A stretch of DNA of 64,000 bases, taken from positions 1 through 64,000 of the IMG/VR virus record IMGVR_UViG_3300009177_000033. One strand, given 5' to 3'. Position 1 is the first letter of the stretch; each line of letters opens with the position of its first letter. Made by a program: the position numbers and the translations under genes. Shown in pieces: positions 1-62,832 of the stretch. Source of the stretch: a virus. Below the pieces are notes generated by a model. It saw only the letters and a program-made list of their open reading frames with translations, did no database searches and had not been told where the DNA came from.

Positions 1-283
1 AACCGACCGTACTGTACCAGTGCAGCATCGTGGCGTCGTCCGGTGCAGCAATTCCGAACGTCGCCGGATCGAGCGTCCCGTCTGCTCTAAAACTGGCATT
101 GGCGAGATTGCTGCTGCCATCAATAAACTGCCCAAACGCACCACCACCAGTAGCAATAGCCGTCGTCGCGGCGCGAACGCCCCAATGGTAGTCGAGCGGA
201 ATTTGATCGCCGACAAATCCGGGAGGCGCGGCAGGGCCAACCGGAAGCAGCCTTGGACCGCGCCCGGTAAACGTCAGCGGCAT
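1..283 (-). CDS. Partial late-operon protein, N-terminal 94 residues
   Basis: The frame opens at ATG 283-281 and stays open to the window edge, so only the N-terminus (MPLTFTGRGPRLL...) is visible. It overlaps the stop of the preceding gene by 10 nt, in keeping with the translational coupling of this operon. The visible part is rich in Gly, Ala and Pro, has no signal peptide or membrane segment, and I recognise no domain. Its place after the portal, collagen-like and zinc-ribbon genes suggests a virion component. If the genome is circular, the coding sequence continues at or beyond the right edge of the window. Confidence 0.7.
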   Translation of the reverse strand, partial: MPLTFTGRGPRLLPVGPAAPPGFVGDQIPLDYHWGVRAATTAIATGGGAFGQFIDGSSNLANASFRADGTLDPATFGIAAPDDATMLHWYSTVG

Positions 284-1368
284 CGCTGCTCCCAAGCCTC
301 GATCAGATTATCGAGGCTGTCTTTTTTCCAGATTATTCGCTGCGCTTCGTTGAACCACGGAAACTGCTGGCCCACTTCGATGCCCATGCACTCGGGCCAG
401 AACTCGGGCCAGCCGGGGCGATAGCGCTGGTGATGCCCTTCGTCCACTTCGATGAAGGTTATAAACGGCGTGTCGAGATGATAGTTGATCGTCATCGGGC
501 CATTCGACACGAACAGATTGCATTTCGCCTGCGTGTAGAGCGCGGTGCGGATATGCAGATCGACCGACGCGGCCGGGTGCGTTGAGAAATAGTCAAACTC
601 ATCATTGGCGAAACGGGTATCGCGCAGAAAGATAACCTCTTCGCCGTGATCCTCGAGGTATTTGGCGAAAGCCAGCCACGCGGTGAGATCGCTATTCCGC
701 CAGGGCGAGTGTGTCGCTTCGCGCAGCGTAATCGTTACCGGCGCTTTTAATCCTCGCAGATCGTCTTGGACGAGCTCCATCGCTTTCTGCGACGGTTTGA
801 ACTTGGGTATTTTCTCGCCGTTGTGGATCGCTTCGACAACGTCTTTGTAGAAAACAGAAAACTTGTATTCACCGCCGAAGATTTTATTTGTCTCGCCGCC
901 AATCATGCTGACCATCGGACCGGCGACGTTATGCAGCATTTCGAAATGATAAGCGGGCATCGTCTGCGCATCCCTATGGCGAAAGAATGCGAGCTTCAAT
1001 GGATCTTCGATGCCAGAGCGCACCCGGCGCATTTCCGCATTGATCAGCCACGGCAGAAAGTCATAGCCGAGGATACCCGAGGAAACGTTGTAGCAGACTT
1101 GGTTCGCTGCGATGGATGGATCGTATGGCGGGAGACGCTTCGTGATCTCGTCGTCAATGCGCTGCTTGAGGCTATCGATGGCGCTATGAATGGCCGATTG
1201 CATGACAATCGAACCGCACACATCGGCATAAATAATATTCGGCTGTTCGCAGGCAGCGAGGGCGAGATGAGTTATCCCGCCCTCCTTTGCCTTTGCCAGC
1301 CACAGCTCAAGCAGGGCAACACATTCAGCATTGCCCCACTCTTTTTCCAGCGGGGCTTTTACGTCCAT
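274..1368 (-). CDS. Putative GT-B-like glycosyltransferase in head module
   Basis: 364 residues, soluble. The C-terminal half (about 230-360) has the layout of a GT-B nucleotide-sugar domain: a strand and helix around a KYLEDHGEEVIFL segment, then a CNLFVSNGPMTINYHL segment resembling the GPxxxxHHA region of family 9 heptosyltransferases. The match is weak and no catalytic residue can be fixed. It stands between structural genes and echoes the glycosyltransferase cassette at 55.9-62.2 kb of the same operon, so a role in modifying a virion or cell-surface glycan is inferred. It could instead be an unrelated alpha/beta protein. Confidence 0.5.
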   Translation of the reverse strand: MDVKAPLEKEWGNAECVALLELWLAKAKEGGITHLALAACEQPNIIYADVCGSIVMQSAIHSAIDSLKQRIDDEITKRLPPYDPSIAANQVCYNVSSGILGYDFLPWLINAEMRRVRSGIEDPLKLAFFRHRDAQTMPAYHFEMLHNVAGPMVSMIGGETNKIFGGEYKFSVFYKDVVEAIHNGEKIPKFKPSQKAMELVQDDLRGLKAPVTITLREATHSPWRNSDLTAWLAFAKYLEDHGEEVIFLRDTRFANDEFDYFSTHPAASVDLHIRTALYTQAKCNLFVSNGPMTINYHLDTPFITFIEVDEGHHQRYRPGWPEFWPECMGIEVGQQFPWFNEAQRIIWKKDSLDNLIEAWEQRCR

Positions 1369-19174: not shown

Positions 19175-19862
19175 CCGGTCCGGTTACGTTCCAGAACAAC
19201 ACAGGGCCGGGGCGCTTGCCCCGGCTCTGGCATATCTGCCAAGCCTTCGCATCGTAATGCGGATCGGATGGGAACGGCGGCTGCTTTGCCCGCCATTCGA
19301 ACGGCTTTGGAAAAAATATGTGGTTTGCGCCCGACACGGGCCGCGTCTTTCTTCCCACCATAACCACATTGATCTCGGCGTCGGGCCACGTTGCCCGCAT
19401 CGCACGACCGAGAACACCACTCCCACCAGCACACCAAACTTCCCTTGGTTTTACTTTCAGCGTCTTTGCTGCCGCAGAGATCGCGTCGACCGCGCCGGGA
19501 ACGTCCATACCGAACGGCGCGAGCTTTGCACCTGTATCTCCGCAATAGCGCTTTGCCGTCGCTTGTACGTTGCTCAGCATCCCGAATGGGACTTGGATAA
19601 TCGTCGCGCCCAGCGCCTTAGCTTCGAACGCTCGCGGATGCGGTTCGCTGCGCTTCGCGACAAATAACGTGGCTTTCTTTCCAAGCTTGTGCGCGACGAA
19701 GGCCAGCGCATATTGCGCGCCGCCTTGGCACGGCGATGCATAAACCACCTCATCGGCGTCCTCATATAGCGTTGCGAGATATCGAGACTTTGTGCCACCG
19801 GGAAATAAATCCTCGCGCACCACCAGGGTGCCGTCGATTTCCTCGAGGATGGGTTTTTGCAT
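19155..19862 (-). CDS. PLP-dependent fold-type II-like enzyme
   Basis: 235 residues. DLFPGGTKSRYLATL carries a Lys (about 25) at the place of the Schiff-base Lys of the tryptophan synthase beta/ACC deaminase/cysteine synthase superfamily. The SPCQGGAQYALAFVAHKLG helix and the glycine loop WCAGGSGVLGRAM match substrate- and phosphate-binding regions. It is shorter than free-standing members (300 residues or more). It is the last gene of a tightly coupled operon with a ParB-N/methyltransferase, which suggests a role in DNA base modification, though a metabolic role is possible. Confidence 0.75.
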   Translation of the reverse strand: MQKPILEEIDGTLVVREDLFPGGTKSRYLATLYEDADEVVYASPCQGGAQYALAFVAHKLGKKATLFVAKRSEPHPRAFEAKALGATIIQVPFGMLSNVQATAKRYCGDTGAKLAPFGMDVPGAVDAISAAAKTLKVKPREVWCAGGSGVLGRAMRATWPDAEINVVMVGRKTRPVSGANHIFFPKPFEWRAKQPPFPSDPHYDAKAWQICQSRGKRPGPVLFWNVTGPAKPPEQ

Positions 19863-20191: not shown

Positions 20192-20328
20192 GTGTGCACC
20201 ACGGTCAGGCGCGTCAGATGATTGGGCGCGTATTGTCGAACGCGACGAATATAGTCAGCAGCTTTTTTGCGGTCGGTAAAGATCGCTTCGTGATAGTTCG
20301 CCCAGTCGTGCCAAATAATATAGATCAA
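20188..20328 (-). CDS. 46-residue hypothetical protein
   Basis: Starts at TTG 20328 (TTGA overlap with the methyltransferase stop) with GGAG 7 nt upstream. IYIIWHDWANYHEAIFTDRK... is a compact strand-helix unit. Function unknown. Confidence 0.55.
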   Translation of the reverse strand: MIYIIWHDWANYHEAIFTDRKKAADYIRRVRQYAPNHLTRLTVVHT

Positions 20329-22394: not shown

Positions 22395-23732
22395 TTAGTC
22401 CTTGAAAGGATCAAATTCACCCTCACCGGCCATAGCGACTGCGAACGGGCGAAGCGTGTGCAGAACATTCACCGATTTGGAATGCTGCGCCAGAACGTCA
22501 GGCAATCGACGATAGGCCATAGGACTTTCGTCGAGATCGGCACCAACCAAAGTTACGCCTCGCTCGTTCAACCACTTATCCATTTCGGCGCGCGTAAAGC
22601 GTCGCTTGGCTTCTTTGCGACCGAACAATCGGCCAGCGCCGTGGATCGTTGAATAGAGCGATTCTTTTGCCTCTTCGCTTTCGACGCCTTCGACAATAAC
22701 CGCATCGTCTCCCATCGAGCCGCCGACGAATCCGCGCTGGCCGGGGAAGGCCGGCGTCGCGCCTTTGCGAACCACCCATAGATTTTTGCCGTTATGATTC
22801 TCGCGCCATGCGTAATTGTGGTGGTTGTGGACCATATCGGTGACAGAGCCGCCGATAAGCTTGCGCACACGCTCGATCACCCATTCGCGGCCAGCGTAGG
22901 AATAGCGGCCAGCCAATTCCATCGCGGCGATGTAACGCCGACCAAGCTCGCTGTCCTCGTCGATAACCGCTGGCGGAACGTTCATTCCATCCTTTCCGCC
23001 AGCGAGCTTTAGATATTTCGTCGCGCTTGAATGGCCCAAGCCACGGCTCCCGAAGTGGACGCCGATCCAGACAAAGCCGTCCTCGTCGCGAATCAGATCG
23101 ACATAATGATTTCCAGAGCCGACGGTGCCAAGTTGCGCTGCCGCTTTCTGCCGATAGTCCTCTCTGTCCGATGCCTGCCATGCCGCATCGTCGTCCAACA
23201 GCGGATGCTCGACTTTCTCATCGTTCGTGAGGCCAACGCCGAAAGAAATCACCTTGTGGACGTCTTTGATGATCGTTCCGATGTTGTCCTGTATCGCCGA
23301 GAACGGCGTGTCGAGCCGAACAGCCATATTCCCGCAGCCGATGTCGAAGCCCACACCGGAAATTGAAATCTGTTTCTCATATGCGATCACCCCGCCAACG
23401 GGCTGCGCATAACCAAGATGGCCGTCAGCGCAGATTACGCCAGCCATGGCATTGCCGACCGCCATGCAATTCTTCATCTGGGCGATGGTGTTGTCGTCGT
23501 GCTGGCCAAATATTTTTAGCGGGCTGTTTTGGTATTGCGGTTCCTGCGGGCGCAGCATCGCAATGCCTGCCGCCGCTTCTGCGGCCTCCTTGGCGACGTG
23601 CTCTTTTCTTGCTGCGTCTCGGAACGTGCACCAAGCTGGTTGACCGCGACCCTCGCCGACCCGGCTCTCCGGATCGATGCCAGCGGCTATGCAAAGCTCC
23701 TTTGCTCTCGCCTGATATGGATCGGAACGCAT
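22395..23732 (-). CDS. rtcB: RtcB-family RNA ligase
   Basis: 445 residues. All hallmark motifs are present: GFDIGCGN with the metal-binding Cys, GSGNHY, HFGSRGLGH, HNHHNYA, the KGATPA segment, GSMGDDAVIVEG, and the HGAGR guanylylation His region. RtcB joins 2',3'-cyclic phosphate or 3'-phosphate and 5'-OH RNA ends using GTP and Mn2+. In a phage it would heal tRNAs or rRNA cut by host toxins or anticodon nucleases. No archease or RNA cyclase gene is seen nearby. Start at ATG 23732; the preceding gene ends 18 nt upstream. Confidence 0.96.
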   Translation of the reverse strand: MRSDPYQARAKELCIAAGIDPESRVGEGRGQPAWCTFRDAARKEHVAKEAAEAAAGIAMLRPQEPQYQNSPLKIFGQHDDNTIAQMKNCMAVGNAMAGVICADGHLGYAQPVGGVIAYEKQISISGVGFDIGCGNMAVRLDTPFSAIQDNIGTIIKDVHKVISFGVGLTNDEKVEHPLLDDDAAWQASDREDYRQKAAAQLGTVGSGNHYVDLIRDEDGFVWIGVHFGSRGLGHSSATKYLKLAGGKDGMNVPPAVIDEDSELGRRYIAAMELAGRYSYAGREWVIERVRKLIGGSVTDMVHNHHNYAWRENHNGKNLWVVRKGATPAFPGQRGFVGGSMGDDAVIVEGVESEEAKESLYSTIHGAGRLFGRKEAKRRFTRAEMDKWLNERGVTLVGADLDESPMAYRRLPDVLAQHSKSVNVLHTLRPFAVAMAGEGEFDPFKD

Positions 23733-27645: not shown

Positions 27646-28224
27646 TTACCCAGTTTTGCCTCGCCTAATTTCCAGCGTTCGTAAGCGTTCGATGTCGAGC
27701 AGATCGGTTTTCGGCACATTCCAAGTATCGGGGTCGAGACCATCCGAGCCGTCCGATATTTGCTTCGTGCGGAAAAAATCCTCCTTCGTGATGAAGCCTT
27801 CGATGGCGCATTCCCCTGGCGCTGCCATCGAGTCGATACTGCACGCGATCAAGACGTTAAAAGTTTTCTGCCAATAGAGATCGTTGACCTCTAGCGACCA
27901 CAGCAGTTTTCGATAATGGCCCGGCGTAGTTTTTACATCGGCGCGAATACCGTTAGGCAGAGACAGATCCTTTCCATCGTCGGCAAACATCGCCCAGTGC
28001 ACATCAACGAGAGGCTCAAGTCCGAAATAGATCGCGACAGCACATTCGCCGATCTTGCTGTTCGTAAGTCGCACTGGGTCTTTCTCCGCGCCCCATCTTC
28101 CGGTCCGCGAGCGCGAGCGCGACGATCCGCCAGCGGCATAGTGCGCGATCAAACTGTGCGCCCATCCACTGCATCGCGCCACTAGCTGCTGCTCAACGGA
28201 CACTATTTTTCTGTTTCGATTCAT
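27646..28224 (-). CDS. Putative PD-(D/E)XK-fold nuclease
   Basis: 192 residues from ATG 28224 (ATGA overlap). SKIGECAVAIYFGL provides a Glu in the first helix, and GIRADVKTTPGHYRKLLWSL the D-x-V-K catalytic pair with the following strand, the order expected of PD-(D/E)XK enzymes. A specific role (Holliday junction, restriction-like or Vsr-like) cannot be fixed. It lies between MT-A70 and the parS site; a methyltransferase next to a nuclease-like gene may be a modification-linked pair. Confidence 0.6.
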   Translation of the reverse strand: MNRNRKIVSVEQQLVARCSGWAHSLIAHYAAGGSSRSRSRTGRWGAEKDPVRLTNSKIGECAVAIYFGLEPLVDVHWAMFADDGKDLSLPNGIRADVKTTPGHYRKLLWSLEVNDLYWQKTFNVLIACSIDSMAAPGECAIEGFITKEDFFRTKQISDGSDGLDPDTWNVPKTDLLDIERLRTLEIRRGKTG

Positions 28225-29240
28225 TCTGCTTCGTTGCCCCATGCATCCCAGCCTTTTCGTGCTGGGCCGCGCCTGTTCAGTTCGATCTTCGGCACGTTGG
28301 GATAATAGCTTTCGATAATCCGGTATGATTGCTCTGGCTTCGCAGAATGTTTTGTCCGCTTCTCTCTGATCAAAGATGGAAACTGCGTCCCGGGTGCTGG
28401 CGGCACAACTTTTCCTCGAGTACCGATCAGCAAAATTTCGTGCTGGTTAAGATTCCAATATCCTGTGCCGGTAATTTCTTTGTCCCATGCAAAATGGCTG
28501 ACGTATTTGAAACCCCATGCGCCCATAACGTTTAGAGCTTCTGGAAGCATTGGGACAATCGCCCATAAAAATAAAACGCAATCTTTCGCGGCCGGAATCT
28601 TTCGGCTCATTATCGTTTGCGTATCGCTAACCGGATAATGGTTGGCGGCCGACTTGCGTTGTCCTTTGTCGGAATGTGTTTTGAAGTGCCACTCTGGATC
28701 GGCGAGAACAACGCCATATGTTTTATCCGGCATAGCCTTGATCTTCTTCGCCAGATTCTTCTCGCGCTCTGCCCGCTGGACTTTGAAATTACCGAATTTA
28801 GTTTCTTCAATAACTGCTTTGAGAGTAGCGTCGTGCTGAGTGGCCCATAGGTCCTCGACGATCTTTCGCATTTTGTCACGGCTTAGCTTGGCGAGCTTCA
28901 TCAGCCATGCGCGAGATTTGCCGTTTATGGGAAGGTCAGATCGCCTTAAAGATTTAACCCCGGGGTTAAATCTTTTCCCGCGCCCGGGACCACCAAGCTT
29001 AGGCACGTTCTCGTCTATGCGGACGCCAATCTCTCGACGAAGCGAGAGGATCGTCCACTCCGCTTCTTGCTTTAACTGGGTCACTTCGCCGTACATGAGC
29101 TTTATCGCTTTGGCGACGCCAAGCAATTGCGAAAGTTCTTCATAGGTTTTTGTTTTCCGGCCTTGCTGCTCAAGCTCGCTTAACGCTTTGAGCGCTGCCG
29201 GGACATTTGCAAAATATTTTTGGGGCGTCTTTTCGAGCAT
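28221..29240 (-). CDS. MT-A70-family N6-adenine methyltransferase
   Basis: 339 residues from ATG 29240 with GGAG 7 nt upstream. The N-terminal 150 residues are a helical, basic domain (EELSQLLGVAKAIKLMYGEV). The C-terminal MT-A70 domain has YGVVLADPEWHFKT, where the usual DPPW appears as DPEW, then ANHYPVSDTQTI, VLFLWAIVPMLPEAL and the NLNQHEILLIGTRG segment. It probably methylates adenine in phage DNA for protection or regulation. DPEW variants occur in this subfamily, so loss of activity is not implied. Confidence 0.9.
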   Translation of the reverse strand: MLEKTPQKYFANVPAALKALSELEQQGRKTKTYEELSQLLGVAKAIKLMYGEVTQLKQEAEWTILSLRREIGVRIDENVPKLGGPGRGKRFNPGVKSLRRSDLPINGKSRAWLMKLAKLSRDKMRKIVEDLWATQHDATLKAVIEETKFGNFKVQRAEREKNLAKKIKAMPDKTYGVVLADPEWHFKTHSDKGQRKSAANHYPVSDTQTIMSRKIPAAKDCVLFLWAIVPMLPEALNVMGAWGFKYVSHFAWDKEITGTGYWNLNQHEILLIGTRGKVVPPAPGTQFPSLIREKRTKHSAKPEQSYRIIESYYPNVPKIELNRRGPARKGWDAWGNEAE

Positions 29241-29336
29241 GAGCAACTCCACCACGTTCTCGAATCGGAAAGCGAGAACGCTAAGCGACGAATTGTGGTA
29301 CGTCGATTCTTTTCCGGAAGTTGTTCGCGCTAACTT

Positions 29337-39018: not shown

Positions 39019-39471
39019 ATGACAACGGCAACCAACCGAACCGATTTTATAAAATTTATCGCTCGCCTGTGCGCGGGCCAGTCGGCGCTTCCAAATCAGA
39101 TCGAGGCTTTTGAGAAGTATTACGATGCCAACGCCCCTCACGCCGACAATCTGATCGCAGTCGATGAGGTTCTGATTTCCGGCACGGCAAATAAATCAAT
39201 GCCTGTTGTTTTCGAACTGTACAAAAACGACAAAAAAGTAAACGTCTGCGCCATCAATTTGTTCGGTGGAATCTATCGCTGGTACACGGGGCCTGATCAG
39301 AAAGTAATCGCCGCCGAAAGCGATATCTACTGGCAAGTTCGCCGCAATACCTATGGCGTGAGCGCAGACTTTTTCAGGCACTATGTCGGCCAGATCAGCT
39401 TCATCGATTCAAAATATAAGCGCCACTGCCTGACGATGACCAAAGCACAAGGATCGATTGTCGACCCATGA
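39019..39471 (+). CDS. 150-residue hypothetical protein
   Basis: ATG 39019. Helical start (DFIKFIARLCAGQSALPNQIE), then beta strands (MPVVFELYKNDKKVNVCAIN, GGIYRWYTGPDQKVI). No domain recognised. ATGA overlap with the methyltransferase gene. Confidence 0.6.
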   Translation: MTTATNRTDFIKFIARLCAGQSALPNQIEAFEKYYDANAPHADNLIAVDEVLISGTANKSMPVVFELYKNDKKVNVCAINLFGGIYRWYTGPDQKVIAAESDIYWQVRRNTYGVSADFFRHYVGQISFIDSKYKRHCLTMTKAQGSIVDP

Positions 39472-40097
39472 TTTATGAACCGTTCATCGATAAAGCGCAC
39501 CGCTACAGCAAGAGCGGATTAATGCGCCTGCGCGCAACGTGGATGGCGTGTGCGCAAGTCGACCACAGCGATATCCCTGGCGCATTTGTGGAGTGCGGCG
39601 TATGGCGAGGCGGCAACGTCATGGTGGCGCGTTGGGCGTCGCCGCTTCGCCATTGCTGGCTCTACGATACTTTCGAAGGCATGACAGAGCCCGGTAAATA
39701 CGACATCAAAAACAAACCTAATTCTAAGCCTCTGGACGATAGCTGGATCGGCAAGCTTGCCGTCAGCGTGGAAGCGGTAACCGAAAATCTAAAAGAGGTT
39801 GATGTGTTCGACGACGAGCGCGTCCGCTTCATCAAAGGCGACGTGCGCAAGACACTGCTCGAGGAAAATAATCTGCCAGAGCAGATCGCCGTGCTGCGAT
39901 TGGATACTGATCTTTACGACAGCACCAAAATTGAGATGGAAGCTTTGTATCCGCGCCTCAGCGTCGGCGGGTTTCTGATCGTCGATGATTTCGGCCACTG
40001 GCAAGGCGCGCGAAAAGCAGTCATCGATTATCTGGGAAAGAAATCGAAGGGGCTTAAGCCAATCGACTACACCGGAGTCTGGATGCAAAAGGAATAA
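39468..40097 (+). CDS. TylF/MycF-like class I methyltransferase
   Basis: 209 residues. GAFVECGVWRGGNVMVARW is SAM-binding motif I; CWLYDTFEGMTEPG and AVLRLDTDLYDSTKIEMEAL (metal-binding acidic residues) are hallmarks of the TylF macrocin O-methyltransferase family, which acts on sugar hydroxyls. It stands alone in the plus-strand operon, yet its likely substrate class (sugars) matches the glycosyltransferase cassette of the late operon. Target in the phage is inferred to be a glycan. Confidence 0.85.
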   Translation: MIYEPFIDKAHRYSKSGLMRLRATWMACAQVDHSDIPGAFVECGVWRGGNVMVARWASPLRHCWLYDTFEGMTEPGKYDIKNKPNSKPLDDSWIGKLAVSVEAVTENLKEVDVFDDERVRFIKGDVRKTLLEENNLPEQIAVLRLDTDLYDSTKIEMEALYPRLSVGGFLIVDDFGHWQGARKAVIDYLGKKSKGLKPIDYTGVWMQKE

Positions 40098-54528: not shown

Positions 54529-54967
54529 TGCCGCCCCCTTGCGCTGCCGAATATTTCTTTATTTGCAGGGAAATGCGCCGCTTCATGCTGGCGACGATTT
54601 TCTTCTTCATCAGCCGGTAGGTCGGAAAGAAAAATGGCTGCGCTCCGTTCTGTTGCGTGCCGAACTCCGCGGCTCGCGAATAATCGAACTCGCGTCCAGA
54701 TACGCCTTTGCGCGTCGTCGTCGAGCCGCCAGCGATAACGCGGACAATCGTTTCCTTGTTGCCCGGTTTCACGCCCACCGAAGCCTTCAACGCGCCGGGG
54801 GTAACGCCAGCCTCGGGCGGGCCTTCATAGATCGGCGCGACCGACGCGATAGCGTCCTTCAATATCCCGGCTTGCCGATTAAGCTCGTTGACCGCGTTCT
54901 CGCGTACCGTTTTCTGCATGTCCAAAGTCAAGGCACGGAAGCGCTCGACCGATTTATTGACTGGCAT
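54521..54967 (-). CDS. HK97 gp10-like head-tail/neck protein
   Basis: 148 residues from ATG 54967 (TAATG). Helical N-terminus (VERFRALTLDMQKTVRENAV), then beta core with GREFDYSRAAEFGTQQNGAQ and PFFFPTYRLMKKKIVASMKR, the signature of gp10/minor tail component proteins that complete the neck. Confidence 0.9.
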   Translation of the reverse strand: MPVNKSVERFRALTLDMQKTVRENAVNELNRQAGILKDAIASVAPIYEGPPEAGVTPGALKASVGVKPGNKETIVRVIAGGSTTTRKGVSGREFDYSRAAEFGTQQNGAQPFFFPTYRLMKKKIVASMKRRISLQIKKYSAAQGGGNV

Positions 54968-55338
54968 TAGACCGCCACGCCTTTCTCGCAGAGCATTTCC
55001 CACCAGAGGCCGTGCTTGTGGTCGCCCTGGTGCGGATCGATCACGGAACGAATGTTGTAAATCTCGCCGCTATCCTCATTTTTGCAGATCCAATCCGTAT
55101 CGACCGCGTTTGATTCGGTCGACTGCCGAACGGTGATATTGGCGAAGTTTTTCCCGGTTAGACGGCTTGCCAAGATCGACTCGCCGCCAAGCTTCGGCTC
55201 GACATTCGCATAAGTGATGAACGTCGCCGTTCCCGGATATGCCCCTTCCATGCCGTAATCGGTATCAGGCGAGCCGGGTGCGCCGGCCGACCCGCGCTGA
55301 TAGAAACCGATCCTGTAGCGAAGATTACCGGCTGGCAT
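54967..55338 (-). CDS. Phage head-tail joining protein (head closure)
   Basis: 123 residues. LRYRIGFYQRGSAGAPGSPD, FITYANVEPKLGGESILASR and DSGEIYNIRSVIDPHQGDHK match PF05521-type head-tail adaptors (SPP1 gp16-like), which close the portal after packaging. Confidence 0.9.
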   Translation of the reverse strand: MPAGNLRYRIGFYQRGSAGAPGSPDTDYGMEGAYPGTATFITYANVEPKLGGESILASRLTGKNFANITVRQSTESNAVDTDWICKNEDSGEIYNIRSVIDPHQGDHKHGLWWEMLCEKGVAV

Positions 55339-55504
55339 CGGGCTTGCCTTTCGGGCGCTCGACGAGCTCAGCCTTGCCGTCCTTTATCGCCTTGTCGGCC
55401 ACTTCCTGCTTCACGAGATGCGTCGCCCCCTTGCCATAAGAAATCATCCAGCGAGCGCCCTGCGGTTGCCAGTCATACTTTTCGTTAAAGCGAACCCAAG
55501 GCAT
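55325..55504 (-). CDS. 59-residue structural-region protein
   Basis: MPWVRFNEKYDWQPQGARWM... is a short beta domain with a Lys-rich end. TGATG coupled to the preceding gene. Similar small ORFs sit before head-tail joining genes of rhizobial prophages. Function unknown. Confidence 0.65.
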   Translation of the reverse strand: MPWVRFNEKYDWQPQGARWMISYGKGATHLVKQEVADKAIKDGKAELVERPKGKPDASR

Positions 55505-55680
55505 CACAACACAACGGTTACCGATTGACTGACTACCCAGAAATAAACGGCCACCGCGGCGACGGGAGCCACCAAGCAAATCCAGAACCAGACCGCTTGC
55601 GAGACATCACTTTGGTGCCATTTGCAAGCCCGGTAGACCCGCATGTTGCCCAGTAATGCGACCGTTTGTCTGAATTTCAT
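55504..55680 (-). CDS. 58-residue membrane protein
   Basis: ATG 55680 (ATGA). Soluble N-terminus (MKFRQTVALLGNMRVYRACK) and one or two hydrophobic stretches (WFWICLVAPVAAVAVYFWVV). Unknown function. Confidence 0.6.
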   Translation of the reverse strand: MKFRQTVALLGNMRVYRACKWHQSDVSQAVWFWICLVAPVAAVAVYFWVVSQSVTVVL

Positions 55681-55919
55681 CGCATGATCCTCGGCACCGG
55701 GCCATACGGCAGTCCCGGTCCATATCCCAGCAGAGAGAATACCCAAACGACCACCGCTATAACGATTAGCAGCGTCACGATAATCTTGCCCCATTTATAG
55801 ACATCTGCATCAGGAGGGTATCCAGCAATTTTGAGAACCCAAACAATCACGAACGCAACGAAAATTATGACCGCACAATGCAGCAGCAAATAGAGCAGGC
55901 TGACCAAGATCGTTTCCAT
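55677..55919 (-). CDS. 80-residue two-span membrane protein
   Basis: Two transmembrane helices around a YPPDADVYKWGK loop. The pattern occurs in other alphaproteobacterial phages within the morphogenesis region. It could be a holin-like or accessory membrane protein; not assigned. Confidence 0.65.
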   Translation of the reverse strand: METILVSLLYLLLHCAVIIFVAFVIVWVLKIAGYPPDADVYKWGKIIVTLLIVIAVVVWVFSLLGYGPGLPYGPVPRIMR

Positions 55920-55932
55920 GTTCTGTCTCCCT

Positions 55933-56793
55933 TTAGCGGATCATTTTGAAAACCGTTCCGTCGCACAGCTCGTCCTCGGTAAACTGGCAATAGGCAAGGG
56001 AGCGCAGCCACGGCATTCTTTCGGGATAAACTGGCGTTTCCACTTGGCTAAGGTCCGTTGAGCCCACCAACGCAGCAGCCGATATCGGCTCGACGAATAC
56101 CGGACAGCCCATAACAACAGACTCAACCGCAGCAATAGAACCGTGCGCGACGAGGCAGTGAGCATTGGCTAGTTCCTCTCGCAAGGGACGCTTGCTTTCT
56201 TTGTCTCGGACGATGATAGGACGCTTCGTGATCGCTTTCAGACGCTCGACCGCTCGTTTGGTCCAATTGGGGTCGCTGAATAGCTTCCAATAATCCGGAA
56301 GCGTATCGGCGATCACGATATGCTTGCCACTTCGATTCCATGGGCTCAGTTGATTGCCTACCTCGCAGCGCTCGTCGAGCTTTAGTGCGCGCCAGCGATC
56401 ATCAGGCACATCGTAAATCTGTCCCATCTGCGGGCGGTTCAGATGCCAGCGGTAATAGCCCATCTGCACGCCCATGCCGACGCCCTTGGGAAGATGCGTG
56501 GCGAACACGCGCCGCAGATATCCTCGATCCCAGTAAATCCATTTGCGGCCTGTTTTCGCCCAGTGCGCCAAGACGTAGCGAAACTCGGGGCTGCATCCGA
56601 CTATGGGAATAATCTCGTCGGGCAGTTTTCCGACCGCTTCGAAATCATTTCGCACCACACGCCCGCCAAGCTTTTCAACATAGGCGCCGATGCGCTCGAA
56701 AAGAGCCAGCTTGAATTTCTTGAGCCCGGGCGGGATGAAAAGCGCAACGTCTTTCGGATCGACGCCTACACTTTCCAATACTCTCGTATCCAC
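55933..56793 (-). CDS. GT-B-like glycosyltransferase (capsule-polysaccharide type)
   Basis: 286 residues. The C-terminal Rossmann half has AHCLVAHGSIAAVESVVMGC followed by PVFVEP, the sugar-nucleotide-binding signature of capsule-polysaccharide-type GT-B enzymes; HIVIADTLPDYWKLF and RPIIVRDKESKRPL are the flanking strands. Last gene of the glycan cassette in transcription order. Overlaps the upstream gene by 28 nt. Substrate unknown. Confidence 0.7.
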   Translation of the reverse strand: MDTRVLESVGVDPKDVALFIPPGLKKFKLALFERIGAYVEKLGGRVVRNDFEAVGKLPDEIIPIVGCSPEFRYVLAHWAKTGRKWIYWDRGYLRRVFATHLPKGVGMGVQMGYYRWHLNRPQMGQIYDVPDDRWRALKLDERCEVGNQLSPWNRSGKHIVIADTLPDYWKLFSDPNWTKRAVERLKAITKRPIIVRDKESKRPLREELANAHCLVAHGSIAAVESVVMGCPVFVEPISAAALVGSTDLSQVETPVYPERMPWLRSLAYCQFTEDELCDGTVFKMIR

Positions 56794-57452
56794 GGCACCC
56801 CCAAATACATCGCAGGCTTGCGCTTGCCGATGAACGAAACGATCCTCGCGTCCTGCGGCAGTATCATTCCGGTCGGTCGCATCGGCCAGCCGGGTTTCTG
56901 GAAGCCATAGATGCCCGATTCCGCCCCAGCCCGCCAGCCATCGGCGTTAGGCAGCTTGTGCCATATCCAGCCCTGATCGTCGGGAAATTCATGAAAAGGC
57001 ACAGCTTTGGCCTTTTCGAGCGAGAAATCGTCCCAGACCTCGTGATGGTGCCCAGCGTGAAGAAGCATGACGCTGGCGTTAAACGGGTTTGGATTGACGG
57101 CATTAACGCCCTGCAAAATCTTGAAGCTCGATGTCGTTACAAGCAGATCGTCAATCGGCTTAAGCACCATCAAATCGAGGTCGAGCGACAGGATCGGCCC
57201 TTTATGGAAGCCGTTTCTCACTTGCCATTGCCGGTCGAACATGCGCAGCCGGCAAAAGCATGATCGATCGATCAGATTTTTGTCCTCGATCTCTCGCGTC
57301 TCTACGCCGGAAATAGAATAAGGAAGGTCAGAAAAAAGATAGAAGCGATGCCGAGCACGAAGGTTTTTTTGCACTGCATTGGCAAGCCTCTGCACATCGC
57401 GGGGATTATATTTGCTGCCCCACATCCATGAGATGACATTCACGCCGTCCAT
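56766..57452 (-). CDS. GT-A-fold glycosyltransferase with DxD motif
   Basis: 228 residues. GPILSLDLDLMVLKPIDDLL carries the D-x-D metal/nucleotide-sugar motif; LQGVNAVNPNPFNASVMLLH and FHEFPDDQGWIWHKLPNADG are signatures of a family met in phages of alphaproteobacteria, commonly annotated glycosyltransferase. Acceptor unknown; cassette context suggests a virion or host-surface glycan. Confidence 0.82.
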   Translation of the reverse strand: MDGVNVISWMWGSKYNPRDVQRLANAVQKNLRARHRFYLFSDLPYSISGVETREIEDKNLIDRSCFCRLRMFDRQWQVRNGFHKGPILSLDLDLMVLKPIDDLLVTTSSFKILQGVNAVNPNPFNASVMLLHAGHHHEVWDDFSLEKAKAVPFHEFPDDQGWIWHKLPNADGWRAGAESGIYGFQKPGWPMRPTGMILPQDARIVSFIGKRKPAMYLGVPWIREYWKV

Positions 57453-58027
57453 AGGACACCGATACCGTTGTCCCTGCCGCCGTCTTTGTTCAATCCGCCC
57501 CGGATGATTTCTTTGTGGCGATAATCTTTTTTGATCTCGTCCCAGACTTCGCGGACTTCGATTGGTTTCTTATGCGCCGGTAGCCCGCCCGGTCTATGGA
57601 AATTGATGTCGTGGAACGCAACGAGCCTGCAAATTTTGCCATAGTTCGCCCAGTCCTTTCGCACATATTCTTGCGTGTGGTTAGCGTCGATAAAACAGGC
57701 ATCGAACGGGCCAAGCTTATAAACATCCTCGATCACTTCCGGATCGGTACTGTCGCCAATAATCAGGCTGGCATGATAGCCGCGCTTGCGTAGCGCTTCG
57801 ACACATTCGCGCAAATGCGGCTCGGTATCCTTGAAGCTTTTATCGCCTTGCGGGAGATCGACAGCGACGATGGTTGAACCGGCTGGCATTTTGTTTGCGA
57901 TGATCCAGAGCGAGCCGCCGAACTTGCAGCCGATTTCCAGATAAGACTTCGCGCCTTCGGATCGCATCAGCGTCGCGAGCTCAAGTATCTCGGAGCGATC
58001 CTGCAACATATATGTTTCGCATTTCAT
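57440..58027 (-). CDS. Class I SAM methyltransferase (Methyltransf_24/cephalosporin hydroxylase type)
   Basis: 195 residues. Motif I KSYLEIGCKFGGSLWIIANK, AVDLPQGDKSF, then FDACFIDANHTQEYVRKDW and LVAFHDINFHRPGG. This group includes sugar O-methyltransferases and cephalosporin hydroxylase-like enzymes. ATGA overlap with the GT9-like gene. Probably modifies a sugar. Confidence 0.8.
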   Translation of the reverse strand: MKCETYMLQDRSEILELATLMRSEGAKSYLEIGCKFGGSLWIIANKMPAGSTIVAVDLPQGDKSFKDTEPHLRECVEALRKRGYHASLIIGDSTDPEVIEDVYKLGPFDACFIDANHTQEYVRKDWANYGKICRLVAFHDINFHRPGGLPAHKKPIEVREVWDEIKKDYRHKEIIRGGLNKDGGRDNGIGVLWTA

Positions 58028-58812
58028 TGGAGCTTCGCCATTGCTGCTTCGAAAACTTCGTCAACCGATATCCGATTCATTGCTTCCATACAGTGCGAAC
58101 ATGGCTGGATGCTCCCGCATGCTTTTGCACCGCCAGTAAAATTTGCATTGCCAGCATATCCGACCACCAGCGGCGGTATAAAGCCGCCCATGAGCACGAC
58201 AGCATCAACTCCGACCGCAGCCGACGCATGGTGCATCCCTCCCTCTGGACCGATGTAAAGTTTTGCTAGTGATAACGCGCCGATCACGTCGCGAAAGTTT
58301 TTAAGCTCCATCGTCGTCACTGGCAATCTGCGGCGTGAATTCTTATGAATGAATTGAACGACGTTAACCCCAGCCATCCTTAATCGCTGGCATAGCTGGC
58401 TGAACTTTTCGAATCCCCAATCCTTGTTAGGCGCGACAGTCTTTTGCCAGGGGACGTTTGGCTCGATCACGACGAAATCGTTGTAGCTTTTTTTCAATTC
58501 GTCGATCTTCAAGCGCTCCCATTTATCGAAAAAGAACTCACCGGGCTTCGCTCGAAAATCATAATTCCAAATCCACTTCGTTTTATCGAAGCTCTGCACG
58601 TTATAAAGACGAGCGCCTTTATAGTGCGGTATCCAGACGAGATTGCTTTGATGCGCCATGCTGGGGTGCGCGATGTTCGGATTGTTTCTAAACATTTCTT
58701 CCGACCAAGGGCCCCAAACGATTTTCTTGCCATCGCCAAACGCAGCGAGCTTGCCTTTATCGCGTAGTCCGCGGGCAAGGCCCGTCGCCATTATTTCGTC
58801 GCCGTATCCCAT
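58024..58812 (-). CDS. Family 9 (heptosyltransferase-like) glycosyltransferase
   Basis: 262 residues. N-terminal MGYGDEIMATGLARGLRDKG is the GT9 donor loop; FVVIEPNVPWQKTVAPNKDW and LYIGPEGGMHHASAAVGVDA contain the ADP-sugar-binding and catalytic region; PCSHCMEAMNRISVDEVFEA ends the domain. Shorter than LPS heptosyltransferases, which run to about 330 residues. It could add heptose-like sugars to virion or LPS acceptors. Confidence 0.85.
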   Translation of the reverse strand: MGYGDEIMATGLARGLRDKGKLAAFGDGKKIVWGPWSEEMFRNNPNIAHPSMAHQSNLVWIPHYKGARLYNVQSFDKTKWIWNYDFRAKPGEFFFDKWERLKIDELKKSYNDFVVIEPNVPWQKTVAPNKDWGFEKFSQLCQRLRMAGVNVVQFIHKNSRRRLPVTTMELKNFRDVIGALSLAKLYIGPEGGMHHASAAVGVDAVVLMGGFIPPLVVGYAGNANFTGGAKACGSIQPCSHCMEAMNRISVDEVFEAAMAKLQ

Positions 58813-58949
58813 GGTGGATCGTCCGGTATCAGTTTGTGGCGTATATCGCCATCGTGGATTTCGTATCCGGATTTTTCAAGCTCAGCGCCGACGCAGTACC
58901 CGTTCTTGCATAGATTCACGCAACGACATTTTTCGTAAATGCATTTCAC
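58791..58949 (-). CDS. 52-residue Cys-rich protein of the glycan cassette
   Basis: GTG 58949 (GTGA overlap with FkbM). MKCIYEKCRCVNLCKNGYCV contains six Cys (C-x4-C-x-C-x3-C-x4-C) in the first 20 residues, fit for a zinc or Fe-S site. Unknown function. Confidence 0.6.
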   Translation of the reverse strand: MKCIYEKCRCVNLCKNGYCVGAELEKSGYEIHDGDIRHKLIPDDPPWDTATK

Positions 58950-59599
58950 TTTACCCACCCCATACAGTGGTCGCCATTCATTTCGAATAGCTGTCGAGCG
59001 CCCCAAGCTTCCAGCATCTCCTTCGCATCGTGGCGTTCCCTACCATAAACGGATTTGTGCTTGCGCGTCTTATCGCCCTTTTGCTCGATTACGATAATAG
59101 GCTTGTGCAGCCTGATTGTTTTCTCGCCACCCTCAACAACGAAGTATTCGTAATTCTCGACATCGATCTTCAAGAAATCGACAGCGTGAAATTCGAAGCT
59201 GTCGAGCGTCCGCATTTCTATACCTTGGCCGCCCTCATCGATCTGCGTGCTGCCAGTGCTACCGGGTAATATTTTTAATCCGACCGATCCAGTCCGGTGC
59301 CCTAGCGCAATTTCGCGGACCTCATAATTAGATATCCCCAGCATGTTCGCGTGCAGACATTCGATATGCTCGGCGACTGGCTCGAAACCGATCACTGTTT
59401 CAAACCACTTCGCTAAATGCATCGCCCACAGACCAACGTGCATCCCGACATCGATAGCGCAGCGCCTTTGCTTTACATATCGCATCGCGCCTGCAAGCTT
59501 GTGGTATTGGTAAGTCGCCCTGCCATCTATCTGCGGGCCGAATACGGTTTGCAAATGCATCTCCGAATCCGGAAACCAAATCCCTTGGACGCACTTCAC
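58946..59599 (-). CDS. FkbM-family methyltransferase
   Basis: 217 residues from GTG 59599 (GTGA). CAIDVGMHVGLWAMHLAKWF is motif I, VIGFEPVAEHIECLHANM motif II, then MRTLDSFEFHAVDFLKIDVE and NYEYFVVEGG, the FkbM hallmark with its acidic residues. FkbM enzymes O-methylate sugars and polyketides. In this cassette a methylated glycan is likely. Confidence 0.88.
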   Translation of the reverse strand: MKCVQGIWFPDSEMHLQTVFGPQIDGRATYQYHKLAGAMRYVKQRRCAIDVGMHVGLWAMHLAKWFETVIGFEPVAEHIECLHANMLGISNYEVREIALGHRTGSVGLKILPGSTGSTQIDEGGQGIEMRTLDSFEFHAVDFLKIDVENYEYFVVEGGEKTIRLHKPIIVIEQKGDKTRKHKSVYGRERHDAKEMLEAWGARQLFEMNGDHCMGWVK

Positions 59600-60207
59600 A
59601 GCGTTCCTCGAGGATCGATGCGCGCCCATATAGCGGCTGGCTGCGCAACAGTCTCGGTATATTCCCGCAACATGATCTCGCAAATTTCCGAATAGTGGAC
59701 TTCGCGAAAGCCCTCTCGCAGAACCATTGGTGAGAACTCGTCGCGTTCCTCGCGCGATCCTCGCCAAACGAAATATTTTTCCGTCCTATTGACGAGATAT
59801 TGCACAAGCTCAAAAAGCCTGTCGGATGGCATGACGCGCGACAGCTTATGATAGACCGCCAGCATTAGCGTGATGTCGTAGCGCTGCTCGCCGAACGCTT
59901 TAGTAATCGCAGCGCCGCCGCCAGTCAGATCGACAACCTCAAATTTATATTGAGCATGGCGATAGTCGGCGAAAAGTTCGTTTGCGTGCCGGATTGTTTC
60001 GGCAGAATTATCGCACCCATGAAGTATAGAAGCACCGTGGTGCATAAGATCAAAGCAGACATGACCGCGATTGCATCCCACATCGAATACAGACGCTCCC
60101 GCAGCCCGAGGTAAAAGATCGCCAAGACCATCAAGGCGAAAGCCGCTGTGAGAAATAATCCGACGCTGTACACCTTTGTCCGTCCAGCTATAGGGGTCGC
60201 GCGCCAT
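59596..60207 (-). CDS. SAM-dependent methyltransferase
   Basis: 203 residues. ASVFDVGCNRGHVCFDLMHH is motif I, GCDNSAETIRHANELF motif II and DITLMLAVYHKLSRVMPSDR the motif IV region. Family within the DUF1698/Methyltransf_11-like group. TAATG coupled to the preceding gene. Confidence 0.8.
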   Translation of the reverse strand: MARDPYSWTDKGVQRRIISHSGFRLDGLGDLLPRAAGASVFDVGCNRGHVCFDLMHHGASILHGCDNSAETIRHANELFADYRHAQYKFEVVDLTGGGAAITKAFGEQRYDITLMLAVYHKLSRVMPSDRLFELVQYLVNRTEKYFVWRGSREERDEFSPMVLREGFREVHYSEICEIMLREYTETVAQPAAIWARIDPRGTL

Positions 60208-60374
60208 TATGGCGTCTCGCTATCGCGTAGATTTTCGCAGAGCGCTTGCAGCGCCCATTCGATCTCGTCAATTTTTCTTCGGAGATCAAGTTTGAGGGTA
60301 TCGAAGTCACCAGCGTCAACAGGCATTGCGCGATGCCGGGTAACGCCTTCCAAGATTTCCTGAAACGAGATCAT
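60207..60374 (-). CDS. 55-residue helical protein
   Basis: ATG 60374 (ATGA). MISFQEILEGVTRHRAMPVD then LKLDLRRKIDEIEWALQALC. Helical; unknown function. Confidence 0.6.
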   Translation of the reverse strand: MISFQEILEGVTRHRAMPVDAGDFDTLKLDLRRKIDEIEWALQALCENLRDSETP

Positions 60375-60775
60375 CGGTCTTGCTTTCTTATATTCTGCCG
60401 TTGAACGTCCTGCACGCTGTCGAGCTTATTCGTTATGGCTTCAAGCTGCTTCGAAACGTTATCCACTTGAACTTTCATTGCCGCACTGGCGATACCAAAC
60501 TGATTAAACGAAGCGATGAATTGCTCGCGCACCCTTTCGGCTTTCTCCTGATCGTTTTTATTTGTTTTTGCCCAGTCGTCGTAATTACGTTGCAGCGTTG
60601 AATTGAAGCTGTCGAATTTCTTTCCGATCTCGACGAAATTGCTTTCGTGCCGGTCGAGCTTGTCCTTAGTGGTGAAATAAAACGCTATCAATATGCCGAT
60701 AAAGGCCAGCCCTGCTGCGCCGAACGAACGAACCCATGCCGCCCAATCGACGTGCGATTCCTTTTTACGCGGCAC
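60371..60775 (-). CDS. Membrane-anchored coiled-coil protein
   Basis: 134 residues: one transmembrane helix (SFGAAGLAFIGILIAFYFTT) near 15-35, then a long coiled coil (KVQVDNVSKQLEAITNKLDS). Same architecture as the product of 42735-43088. May be a scaffold for the glycan enzymes at the membrane; unproven. Confidence 0.65.
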   Translation of the reverse strand: MPRKKESHVDWAAWVRSFGAAGLAFIGILIAFYFTTKDKLDRHESNFVEIGKKFDSFNSTLQRNYDDWAKTNKNDQEKAERVREQFIASFNQFGIASAAMKVQVDNVSKQLEAITNKLDSVQDVQRQNIRKQDR

Positions 60776-61574
60776 GTTGCCCTCCCCTTACCGCATCATA
60801 GTTGCCGAAGTTCGATGCCAGCGCTTCGTATTTCTCGGCGGTATAGCCCGCCGCTTGCGCTTCTTCCCAAAGCTGATCGACGAGCGGCTGAACGTCCTTA
60901 CGCGCGTGCGGCAGCGGTTGTTCTGCCTTAAGCGTCCATTGGTTCCAGTGGCGCTTGCCCTTGGCTTTTAATCGCGGCAGCGCCCACTTCAAATGCGGCT
61001 GCGTCTCGACCTTCGTAAAATGGATGATCTTGATATCGGGGTGCGCCAGCGTCGGATAGTTTTCGCCATCGAGGCAATTCCAGTTGCCGGTAAAGTTCGC
61101 TGCGGCGCCACCTATAGTCCGCCTGACATTTCGATACATGCCCTCAGTGCGCCGCAGCGTTTCGAAAGCGGGGATATACTTTTTGGCCGCCGCGCAATCG
61201 TAGAGGATCACGCAGGAATGTTTGTCGTCTTTCATCAGCAGACATTTGCCGGGAGGGATTTGCTGATTCCAGAGATCGAAGATATCGGCCATGAAAACTT
61301 TATCGACATCGGTATAGATCGCGCGGCCTTCAAAGCCACAGACGTGAGGGATGGCCCACCGAAAGGCGCTGAAGGGCGTCGCCCATCCTTTGGTGTTCCA
61401 TCCCTCTTGTCTCGCAGGGTTTGAATACCACGGCGAGGAAACGTCTTTCGAAAGCATCATCCAAGTCAGTTCGATATCGTTGGTTGGATGATGTTTTCGC
61501 AGCGTGTATTCGAGCAGCGCTTGCGCTTCGGCATCTTCACCATTCGCAGAGCAGCCGACGAATAATTTGATCAT
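60765..61574 (-). CDS. GT8-like glycosyltransferase
   Basis: 269 residues from ATG 61574 (ATGA). LFVGCSANGEDAEAQALLEY, then WAIPHVCGFEGRAIYTDVDK with a D-x-D motif, GNWNCLDGENYPTLAHPDIK and IIHFTKVETQPHLKWA are the strand, metal site and C-terminal His-containing segment of GT8-type enzymes. Donor and acceptor unknown. Confidence 0.8.
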   Translation of the reverse strand: MIKLFVGCSANGEDAEAQALLEYTLRKHHPTNDIELTWMMLSKDVSSPWYSNPARQEGWNTKGWATPFSAFRWAIPHVCGFEGRAIYTDVDKVFMADIFDLWNQQIPPGKCLLMKDDKHSCVILYDCAAAKKYIPAFETLRRTEGMYRNVRRTIGGAAANFTGNWNCLDGENYPTLAHPDIKIIHFTKVETQPHLKWALPRLKAKGKRHWNQWTLKAEQPLPHARKDVQPLVDQLWEEAQAAGYTAEKYEALASNFGNYDAVRGGQRAA

Positions 61575-62227
61575 AGTCCCCACCTTGCCAGTGTCGCCGC
61601 GACCTCGATCCGAGGAAATCGGCCGACTGTTGAAAACATCGACGTATTGATCACTTCGATTCCTAGTTCGTGCAGTTTCGGCGCGGCATTTTCCAGCCAA
61701 GTTTTCCAGCCAACGAAAGTGCTGTTATCCGGGTTAGTTAATTCGATTGGATGGCTACCGTGCCAGTGGACTTTGTTATTGATTATGCAGCCATCGAACC
61801 CGAGCAAGGCGATTCCCGCAACCCCTATTTGCGCTAGCCAGTTTACGACCTGAAATCCAGAGCCTTGCCCGCTGCCAATAACGCCCCATTCGTCCATCAG
61901 GAAGTATTTTATCGGTTGCCCTGGCGTCGCGTCCCGCAGCCGCAGCCGCTTGATCTCGGGATGCTCGCGCACGATTAAGGCGTCCTGCGTAACCTTCAAA
62001 CCTTTGAAATCTTTCACAAGATTCCAGCGCAGCTTCCACCACTTGTAATCGCACGAATAGAGCGCGTCCGCCCAAGGGGCGAGCTGATAGCTTTCGTTGA
62101 CGACGACGACGCGCACGCGGCCTTTCAGGCTATCGACATCGCTGCGCTTGACGGACGCCCCGCCGCCGATCACCGCGACGTATTGCCCCGCCCAGTCTGG
62201 ATACCAATCTGGCCGCTCACCCTTCAC
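61571..62227 (-). CDS. MptE/DUF115-like Rossmann protein of the glycan cassette
   Basis: 218 residues. GQYVAVIGGGASVKRSDVDS, VVVVNESYQLAPWADALYSC, GSGFQVVNWLAQIGVAGIAL and HWHGSHPIELTNP match a phage family related to DUF115/MptE-like proteins, which include flagellin and glycan modification factors and have a sialyltransferase-like fold. First gene of the cassette, coupled to the head-tail connector gene by ATGA. Confidence 0.75.
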   Translation of the reverse strand: MKGERPDWYPDWAGQYVAVIGGGASVKRSDVDSLKGRVRVVVVNESYQLAPWADALYSCDYKWWKLRWNLVKDFKGLKVTQDALIVREHPEIKRLRLRDATPGQPIKYFLMDEWGVIGSGQGSGFQVVNWLAQIGVAGIALLGFDGCIINNKVHWHGSHPIELTNPDNSTFVGWKTWLENAAPKLHELGIEVINTSMFSTVGRFPRIEVAATLARWGL

Positions 62228-62832
62228 GCCATGCTCTTGTCAATCTTGTGCCGCCGCAGCAGCATGTCCGCGCCGAACGGCAGCGTATTGATAATGCCCT
62301 CTACGTTTTCCTCGCGGCGTTCGAACATATTTCCGACGAGCAGCAATAGCCCTGCTTTGATATTGAAAGGAATATTTGCCGTCAGATCGGGCGGCGATGA
62401 ACTATCTGGGCTATAGCCAGCGACGAACTCGACGCGAACGGCATTAACCGCATCGAGCGGCGTCGGCCAGCTAACGCCCGAAACGGGGACAACCCAACCC
62501 GGCTCGCTCGCGGTATCGACATAATAATCGGTGGAGGCGACTGTCTGCTCGACGCCAGCGCCATCATCGTATTTGACGCTGTTGACGCTTTGCAGCGGCG
62601 GCAGAGGAATACGGATTTCCCCGGAGGGAAATTCGTCGATAGTCAGCAGCCACGTTTGCGTGACGATTGCGCGACCAAGAAATCCCCACTCGCCGTCGAT
62701 AAAGTCGGTGGCGGCTTTCAGATAGATCGTGATCAGATCGTCTTGGTCTGTCGTAGTAACGCGCAGATGCTTTTTCACTTCCGCCAGCGTCAAAGGCGTA
62801 ACGGTCGGCGCGACGAGTCGTTGCAGTGCCAT
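62224..62832 (-). CDS. Head-tail connector protein (gp6/phiE125 gp8-like)
   Basis: 202 residues. PLTLAEVKKHLRVTTTDQDD, LITIYLKAATDFIDGEWGFL and the closing NMFERREENVEGIINTLPFG fit the connector family that forms a ring beneath the portal. It starts where the repeat protein ends (1-nt overlap) and leads straight into the glycan cassette. Confidence 0.88.
   Translation of the reverse strand: MALQRLVAPTVTPLTLAEVKKHLRVTTTDQDDLITIYLKAATDFIDGEWGFLGRAIVTQTWLLTIDEFPSGEIRIPLPPLQSVNSVKYDDGAGVEQTVASTDYYVDTASEPGWVVPVSGVSWPTPLDAVNAVRVEFVAGYSPDSSSPPDLTANIPFNIKAGLLLLVGNMFERREENVEGIINTLPFGADMLLRRHKIDKSMA

Follow-up and report, generated by a model that had tools for sequence, protein, structure and literature searches.

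Here, we present an analysis of a cassette of glycosyltransferase (GT) and methyltransferase (MT) genes embedded among the head-tail genes of a soil phage. The phage is represented by the 70,892-base IMG/VR record IMGVR_UViG_3300009177_000033, of which the window analyzed here (64,000 bases) covers positions 1-64000. Because both ends of the record carry a 123-bp direct terminal repeat (record positions 1-123 and 70770-70892), the record is probably circularly closed. The late operon lies on the minus strand and runs from the large terminase gene TerL (9292) across position 1, re-enters at the opposite end of the record, and continues as far as the tail genes. Ten genes in this operon had been predicted from the DNA letters alone to separate a head-tail connector from the head closure genes. 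We found all ten open reading frames (ORFs) in place between a head-tail adaptor and the head closure protein Hc1, together with one small ORF absent from the original prediction, so that eleven ORFs occupy 55933-62227 (Table 1). Following the adaptor, the order is GT42-like, GT8-like, transmembrane/coiled-coil, 55-amino-acid (aa) ORF, MT1, FkbM, Cys-rich, GT9, MT2, GT-A, and GT-B; the block thus holds five glycosyltransferases, three S-adenosylmethionine (SAM)-dependent methyltransferases, a Cys-rich protein, and a transmembrane/coiled-coil protein. Consistent with the predicted linkage, the ORFs overlap by 1-34 nucleotides at every junction. The GT8-like frame opens at 61574; the FkbM and Cys-rich ORFs are open to 59767 and 59006, with starts probably at ~59629 and presumably at ~58958, respectively. 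Promoter and terminator scans gave signals not above chance.

Table 1. Genes of the cassette, its boundaries, and a related gene, with coordinates in the window
Feature	Coordinates	Strand	Basis
Head-tail adaptor, upstream boundary	62224..62832	-	PHROG 442 head-tail adaptor, E 1.4e-28
GT42/CstII-like sialyltransferase-fold enzyme, core gene 1	61571..62227	-	PHROG 4603 alpha-2,3-sialyltransferase, E 1.4e-35; dN/dS 0.07
GT8-like GT-A glycosyltransferase with DXD, core gene 2	60765..61574	-	Profile vs PDB: 5gvv (GT8) E 1e-4, WbbM 5e-4
Membrane/coiled-coil protein, 134 aa, confined to close relatives	60371..60775	-	Weak spanin-like/coiled-coil matches only; dN/dS 0.05
Small ORF, 55 aa, not in the original prediction	60207..60374	-	Overlapping junctions; dN/dS 0.035 vs L004
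MT1, SAM methyltransferase, core	59596..60207	-	PF13649 above cut-off; PDB profile match WbdD, E 6e-9
FkbM-family methyltransferase	58946..59629	-	PF05050, E 4e-16; dN/dS 0.08-0.17
Cys-rich small protein, differs among relatives	58791..58958	-	Comparison with L004 and L005
GT9 (heptosyltransferase-like), core	58024..58812	-	PF01075, 23.0 vs cut-off 22
MT2, SAM O-methyltransferase, core	57440..58027	-	PF13578 above cut-off; O-methyltransferase structures, E 3e-5
GT-A glycosyltransferase with DLD, core	56766..57452	-	PHROG 1962 glycosyltransferase, E 5e-13; Gat1/glycogenin structures, E 1e-3 and weaker
GT-B resembling KpsC/WbbB/KrkA beta-Kdo transferases, core	55933..56793	-	AlphaFold model (pLDDT 85) and Foldseek
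Small predicted membrane protein, 80 aa, downstream of cassette	55677..55919	-	Hydrophobic ORF after 13-nt gap; no family match
Small gene adjoining Hc1, 59 aa from inferred ATG	55325..55504	-	32% identity to L007:10426-10563, E 0.001
Head closure Hc1, downstream boundary	54967..55338	-	PHROG 25, E 2.8e-8
Gene 274	274..1368	-	C-terminal domain homologous to genes inside other phages' cassettes

Most of the predicted enzyme identities were borne out. GT9, FkbM, and the two further methyltransferases match their Pfam families above cut-off, FkbM with 60.1 bits versus a gathering score of 22.7. The GT9 profile also matches heptosyltransferase structures (E value, 4e-4), and the C terminus of GT9 (window 58024-58130) carries a CG-x4-C-x-H-C cluster that is invariant in 13/13 GT9 relatives and is possibly a metal site. 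For the GT8-like enzyme, PF01501 falls below the cut-off, and support comes from the profile comparison with GT8 structures in the PDB (E value, 1e-4); the GT-A call agrees with a PHROG glycosyltransferase family, and the DXD motif is invariant in 24/24 sequences of each of the two enzymes. Because profiles of the GT42 and GT-B cassette members alone matched no solved structure by sequence, these two proteins were compared by fold. The closest structures to the GT-B model in Foldseek were KpsC (E value, 4e-5) and WbbB (4e-4) with probabilities of 0.99-1.00 and TM-scores of only 0.4-0.5; judged from this model, the protein appears to have the predicted GT-B fold and to resemble transferases of 3-deoxy-D-manno-oct-2-ulosonic acid (Kdo).

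The first gene of the cassette had been predicted to encode an MptE-like protein. We did not find support for this function, as the protein matches no Pfam family at E values up to 1, including MptE/DUF115; several of its viral structural relatives are annotated as MptE-like. The best match of the AlphaFold model (pLDDT 93.7) among solved structures is CstII (1ro8; Foldseek E value, 2.6e-4; probability, 1.00; TM-score, 0.50-0.55). A profile of nine sequences matches CstII at an E value of 0.007, and a profile of 30 sequences gives no match. G23, G124, and D145 of the motif G-GPS ... SG ... G-D are invariant in 30/30 sequences. Based on the model, we suggest that the first gene is better described as CstII/GT42 sialyltransferase-like than as MptE-like.

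Together, these enzymes fit the predicted pathway in which a glycan is built and methylated. CMP-Kdo and ADP-heptose are donors for the lipopolysaccharide (LPS) core in Gram-negative hosts. The presence of two GTs that resemble CMP-ulosonic-acid transferases and one that is heptosyltransferase-like suggests that the cassette may use LPS-core sugars of the host as donors. A different reading is DNA hypermodification, in which the GTs would attach sugars to modified bases of the phage DNA. Some phage GTs do glycosylate DNA (PMC12619734), and this genome also encodes MT-A70 and N6/N4 DNA methylases; however, Pfam scans of ~70 proteins of the genome revealed no thymidylate synthase/hydroxymethylase homologue or TET/JBP, the cassette lies in the virion module rather than in the replication module, and the solved structures closest to GT42, GT9, and GT-B are those of enzymes with LPS, capsule, or glycan acceptors. 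With the base-modifying enzyme families not found in these scans and the cassette outside the replication module, we rejected DNA hypermodification as highly improbable.

Several observations define the block as an insert. Relatives of the small gene next to Hc1 recurrently adjoin Hc1 in a hidden Markov model map of the loci, and in the cassette-less Rhizobium phage RHph_X2_26 such a relative sits between the adaptor and Hc1; therefore, the edges of the insert are genes that neighbour each other elsewhere. In phages with a related tail tube protein or Hc1, the site is frequently empty or almost so, and the block is therefore an accessory insert. No integrase family was found in the Pfam scans mentioned above. 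Named phages with Hc1 relatives mostly infect rhizobia and related Alphaproteobacteria, and genomes with cassette relatives are mainly alphaproteobacterial, both of which point to a rhizobial or related bacterium as the likely host.

For codon comparisons, we used two short IMG/VR contigs, L004 and L005, that are 96-98% identical to the window across GT42 and GT8. Among the genes compared (adaptor, GT42, GT8, coiled-coil, 55-aa ORF, MT1, FkbM, and GT9), synonymous divergence (dS) was 0.04-0.73, the ratio of nonsynonymous to synonymous divergence (dN/dS) was 0.03-0.30, and there were no internal stops. Thus, these genes are under purifying selection and are not chance ORFs. Both contigs end before MT2, GT-A, and GT-B, and the argument that these three genes are maintained rests on their conservation over many loci. 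dS of MT1 is 0.04 in one relative and 0.30 in the other, while the upstream genes are equally diverged; therefore, recombination affects the second half of the cassette, with signs of it in MT1 and FkbM when the close relatives are compared. The Cys-rich gene is 81% identical over 52 aa in L004, where it follows an inserted transmembrane-type ORF, and has only a 17-aa match in L005.

Using the GT9 enzyme as the search seed, we drew loci from IMG/VR and from bacterial genomes, the latter including Mesorhizobium, Bradyrhizobium, Phenylobacterium, and Hyphomonadaceae. Removal of near-duplicates left 91 non-redundant GT9 loci, which are not phylogenetically independent and many of which are truncated contigs. 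Flanks extended to at most 10 kb, and IMG/VR fragments may be partial; the profiles that identified structural genes were derived from the window together with a small set of reference phages. Most loci come from the viral collection, and cellular contexts were covered by the bacterial genome scan alone. Structural genes on the same strand were present at 72/91 loci, ≤1.5 kb from the cassette in 61 and ≤3 kb in 67. The order GT42-GT8-GT9-MT2-GTA-GTB is identical in 29/91 loci. The conserved core comprises seven genes (GT42, GT8, MT1, GT9, MT2, GT-A, and GT-B), of which MT1 is present in 47/91 loci; FkbM is found in 25/91, and the genes for the Cys-rich and coiled-coil proteins have a local distribution and lie outside the wider core. 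Slots occupied by the cassette include adaptor-Hc1, major capsid protein-portal (e.g., the Mesorhizobium jarvisii prophage L066), after the portal, major capsid protein-adaptor, and portal-scaffold (a Bradyrhizobium prophage), and they are intermixed on the GT9 tree, in which many deep branches are weakly supported. Thus, the insertion point moves yet remains inside the head module across very different phages. The other 19 loci gave no structural match, and some of them belong to other kinds of phage: L069 and L123 have terminase and portal genes ahead of the cassette, L069 has a scaffold gene behind it, and in L104 and L122 a terminase and DUF4055 proteins are encoded nearby.

The variable small-gene and FkbM content, the recombination signs, and presence/absence polymorphism would agree with the idea that several of the genes are unrelated cargo at a tolerant insertion site, or that the substrate is diffusible or lysis related. 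Piecemeal cargo, however, is not expected to hold one order across several slots; as 29 non-redundant loci keep the same order of six genes and the compared genes are under strong purifying selection, we consider this idea quite improbable.

The original prediction regarded a pathway of this kind at a head-gene site as unusual. Rather, the gene set recurs in dozens of uncultured phages and some rhizobial prophages and is almost absent from cultured phages, and a non-homologous cassette of methyltransferase and GT genes is present in Corndog-type phages. A search of 50,697 phage records gave no homologue of GT8-like or MT1, two of MT2 (both in uncultured giant phages), and fifteen of GT9, fourteen of them in Caulobacter giant phages. 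Mini-cassettes (GT42 - adaptor - GT9-like - MT2 - Hc1) are found in the tail-tube-protein relatives L147, L148, L151, and L153-L155, and close kin of these are without them.

We propose that the cassette encodes a pathway, expressed late, for building and O-methylating a glycan on one or more virion proteins, and we hold this to be reasonably probable. The virion is the likeliest target because capsid type, slot, and small genes all vary between loci and only membership of the head module does not, in line with the link to virion assembly that had been predicted. According to this model, the cassette would be transcribed together with the head and tail genes, presumably late. In the cytoplasm, the five GTs would use nucleotide sugars of the host to build a short oligosaccharide; the cassette contains no genes for sugar-nucleotide synthesis, and plausible donors would be CMP- and ADP-activated LPS-core sugars, e.g., Kdo and heptose. 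The methyltransferases would O-methylate the oligosaccharide, probably in this order of action, and the finished glycan would be placed on one or more abundant virion proteins, the capsid or the tail tube being the likeliest, before or during assembly. The benefit could be shielding, stability, adhesion, or receptor mimicry. We also considered a more specific version, in which the capsids of mostly alphaproteobacterial phages are coated with an O-methylated glycan made from host LPS-core donors (Kdo, heptose, and hexose), giving a host-like sugar surface, as a widespread and so far undescribed system; this version we regard as doubtful. No description of the conserved seven-gene core was found in the part of the open-access literature that was searched.

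Directly upstream of the adaptor (L011:2832-5927; window 62832 onward) lies a gene for a 1031-aa protein with many 'PVNQYDWPLPI'-like repeats, and in L006 a different repeat protein occupies the same position, adjoining a GT42/GT9-like/MT set. These repeat proteins are possible virion decorations and candidate glycan acceptors. A pectate-lyase-fold protein (L011:6365-8674) and a concanavalin-like protein (L011:8679-10797) are encoded between the portal-side genes and the adaptor and not with the tail genes.

Some of our observations weigh against a virion target. The GT9, GT42, and KpsC-like folds are typical of LPS and capsule enzymes, and the location in the late operon is indirect evidence that may have other causes, as genes can ride along. 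The Ser/Thr content of structural proteins did not convincingly separate phages with the cassette from those without it. No cassette profile matches Firecracker gp33-36, the Corndog-type enzymes being without detectable homology to those of the cassette. The glycoproteins of XacN1 described below were not linked to its GT42 homologue. Finally, L072 and L075 are bacterial chromosome loci, as probably are their close kin L073 and L076; the GT9 relatives at these four loci are distant (32-34% identity; Pseudomonas luteola/asuensis and marine Alphaproteobacteria), and where neighbours were checked (L075 and L072), they proved to be chromosomal genes (DnaJ, curlin repeats, and PurH).

The enzyme families also count for the alternative named in the original prediction, LPS modification, which remains a serious rival although we consider it unlikely overall. 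Here, the enzymes would attach sugars to the LPS core or to a different host glycan and methylate them late in infection, so that superinfection or the re-adsorption of progeny to debris is blocked. GT9, GT42, and the KpsC/WbbB-like enzymes belong to classic LPS/capsule families, MT1 has as its nearest solved relative the O-antigen terminator (capping) enzyme WbdD, and LPS-core enzymes work in the cytoplasm, making a phage flippase unnecessary. However, expression as part of the virion operon would come late, and the cassette follows the head genes through several slots and lineages. It is also found in giant Caulobacter phages after the tail genes, it lacks GtrA/GtrB, a polymerase, and an O-acetylase, and in PAJU2 the annotated O-antigen acetylase is located elsewhere, on the opposite strand and outside the virion operon. 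A classic serotype-conversion (gtr/oac) cassette was rejected, as no GtrA flippase, GtrB, membrane GtrC, or O-acetylase is among the cassette proteins.

Glycosylation of a virion protein would have counterparts in several known systems. The Caulobacter giant phages (Ccr) have a block in which GT42, GT-B, and GT9 homologues are accompanied by a methyltransferase and a GT8-like enzyme; in contrast to the cassette, this block sits after the tail and before the lysis genes, and identity is ~27-34%. In P1 (pmgO-pmgP-pmgQ), PAJU2 (gp10-12), and Psp6 (genes 47-50), a GT42 homologue occurs with a partner GT and/or methyltransferase in sets of only three or four genes. Those of P1 lie in a separate late operon and are non-essential (PMC10695390), as expected if they encode decoration enzymes, while those of PAJU2 and Psp6 are smaller GT42 + GT9-like + MT sets inside the head module. 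In S20, the very interval between adaptor and Hc1 is the site of a GT42/GT/MT/FkbM/GT-A set; this virus (L008; NC_020840) was deposited as Tetraselmis viridis virus S20 with an algal host and has a head module of the tailed-phage type. Corndog-type (Cluster O) mycobacteriophages, which we compared by means of the relatives Firecracker and Dylan, carry an O-methyltransferase and three GTs inside the head genes, between portal and protease, and missing capsid peptides suggested modification (PMC4351075); these four genes belong to other families (TylF-type MT, GT2-like, and GT25-like), and the hosts are mycobacteria. Glycans on the capsid and tail tube of mycobacteriophages are reported in work cited in PMC12619734. 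A further precedent is XacN1, which encodes a GT42 homologue and yielded at least two glycoproteins (PMC5852040). Outside phages, flagellin glycosylation islands between fliC and fliA similarly place GT and SAM/FkbM methyltransferase genes among the structural genes of a self-assembling surface polymer and vary in gene content (PMC4875605), but they are chromosomal, have flagellin as the acceptor, and include their own sugar biosynthesis genes. The chlorovirus PBCV-1 (A064R etc.) encodes cytoplasmic GTs and a methyltransferase and makes an O-methylated glycan on its major capsid protein (PMC7019647); unlike the cassette, this is an N-glycan of a eukaryotic virus, made with a multi-domain enzyme from genes outside any head-tail operon.

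Particle glycosylation is documented in few phage systems. With a conserved core of seven enzymes encoded in the head modules of dozens of phages, many tailed phages of Gram-negative bacteria may carry methylated sugar coats. If so, virion glycosylation would be common among phages of Gram-negative bacteria in soil and water and not a peculiarity of mycobacteriophages, with effects on particle stability, adhesion, protist predation, and immune recognition as well as on the reading of capsid masses and cryo-EM maps. The idea can be tested in cultured relatives, i.e., the Caulobacter giant phages, P1, PAJU2, and Mesorhizobium prophages.

A further gene in the other half of the operon, gene 274, had been predicted to be GT-like. 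It has no informative Pfam or PHROG match; it is nevertheless related to cassette genes, as its C-terminal domain matches proteins of L098, L108, L082, L078, and L039 (phmmer E values, 1e-10 to 6e-6; 41% identity to L108:14965-16098), all of them shorter and encoded within cassettes. Gene 274 is best read as a putative displaced cassette enzyme, possibly a glycosyltransferase. Also apart from the cassette, a TylF-type macrocin O-methyltransferase (PF05711; E value, 1e-43) is encoded on the plus strand at window positions 39468-40097; in Corndog-type phages, an MT of this type is found inside the head cassette. Other genes of the window, at 22395-23732, 19155-19862, 20325-21809, and 28221-29255, encode an RtcB-like RNA ligase, a protein similar to pyridoxal phosphate-dependent enzymes, and the two DNA methylases (N6_N4 and MT-A70).

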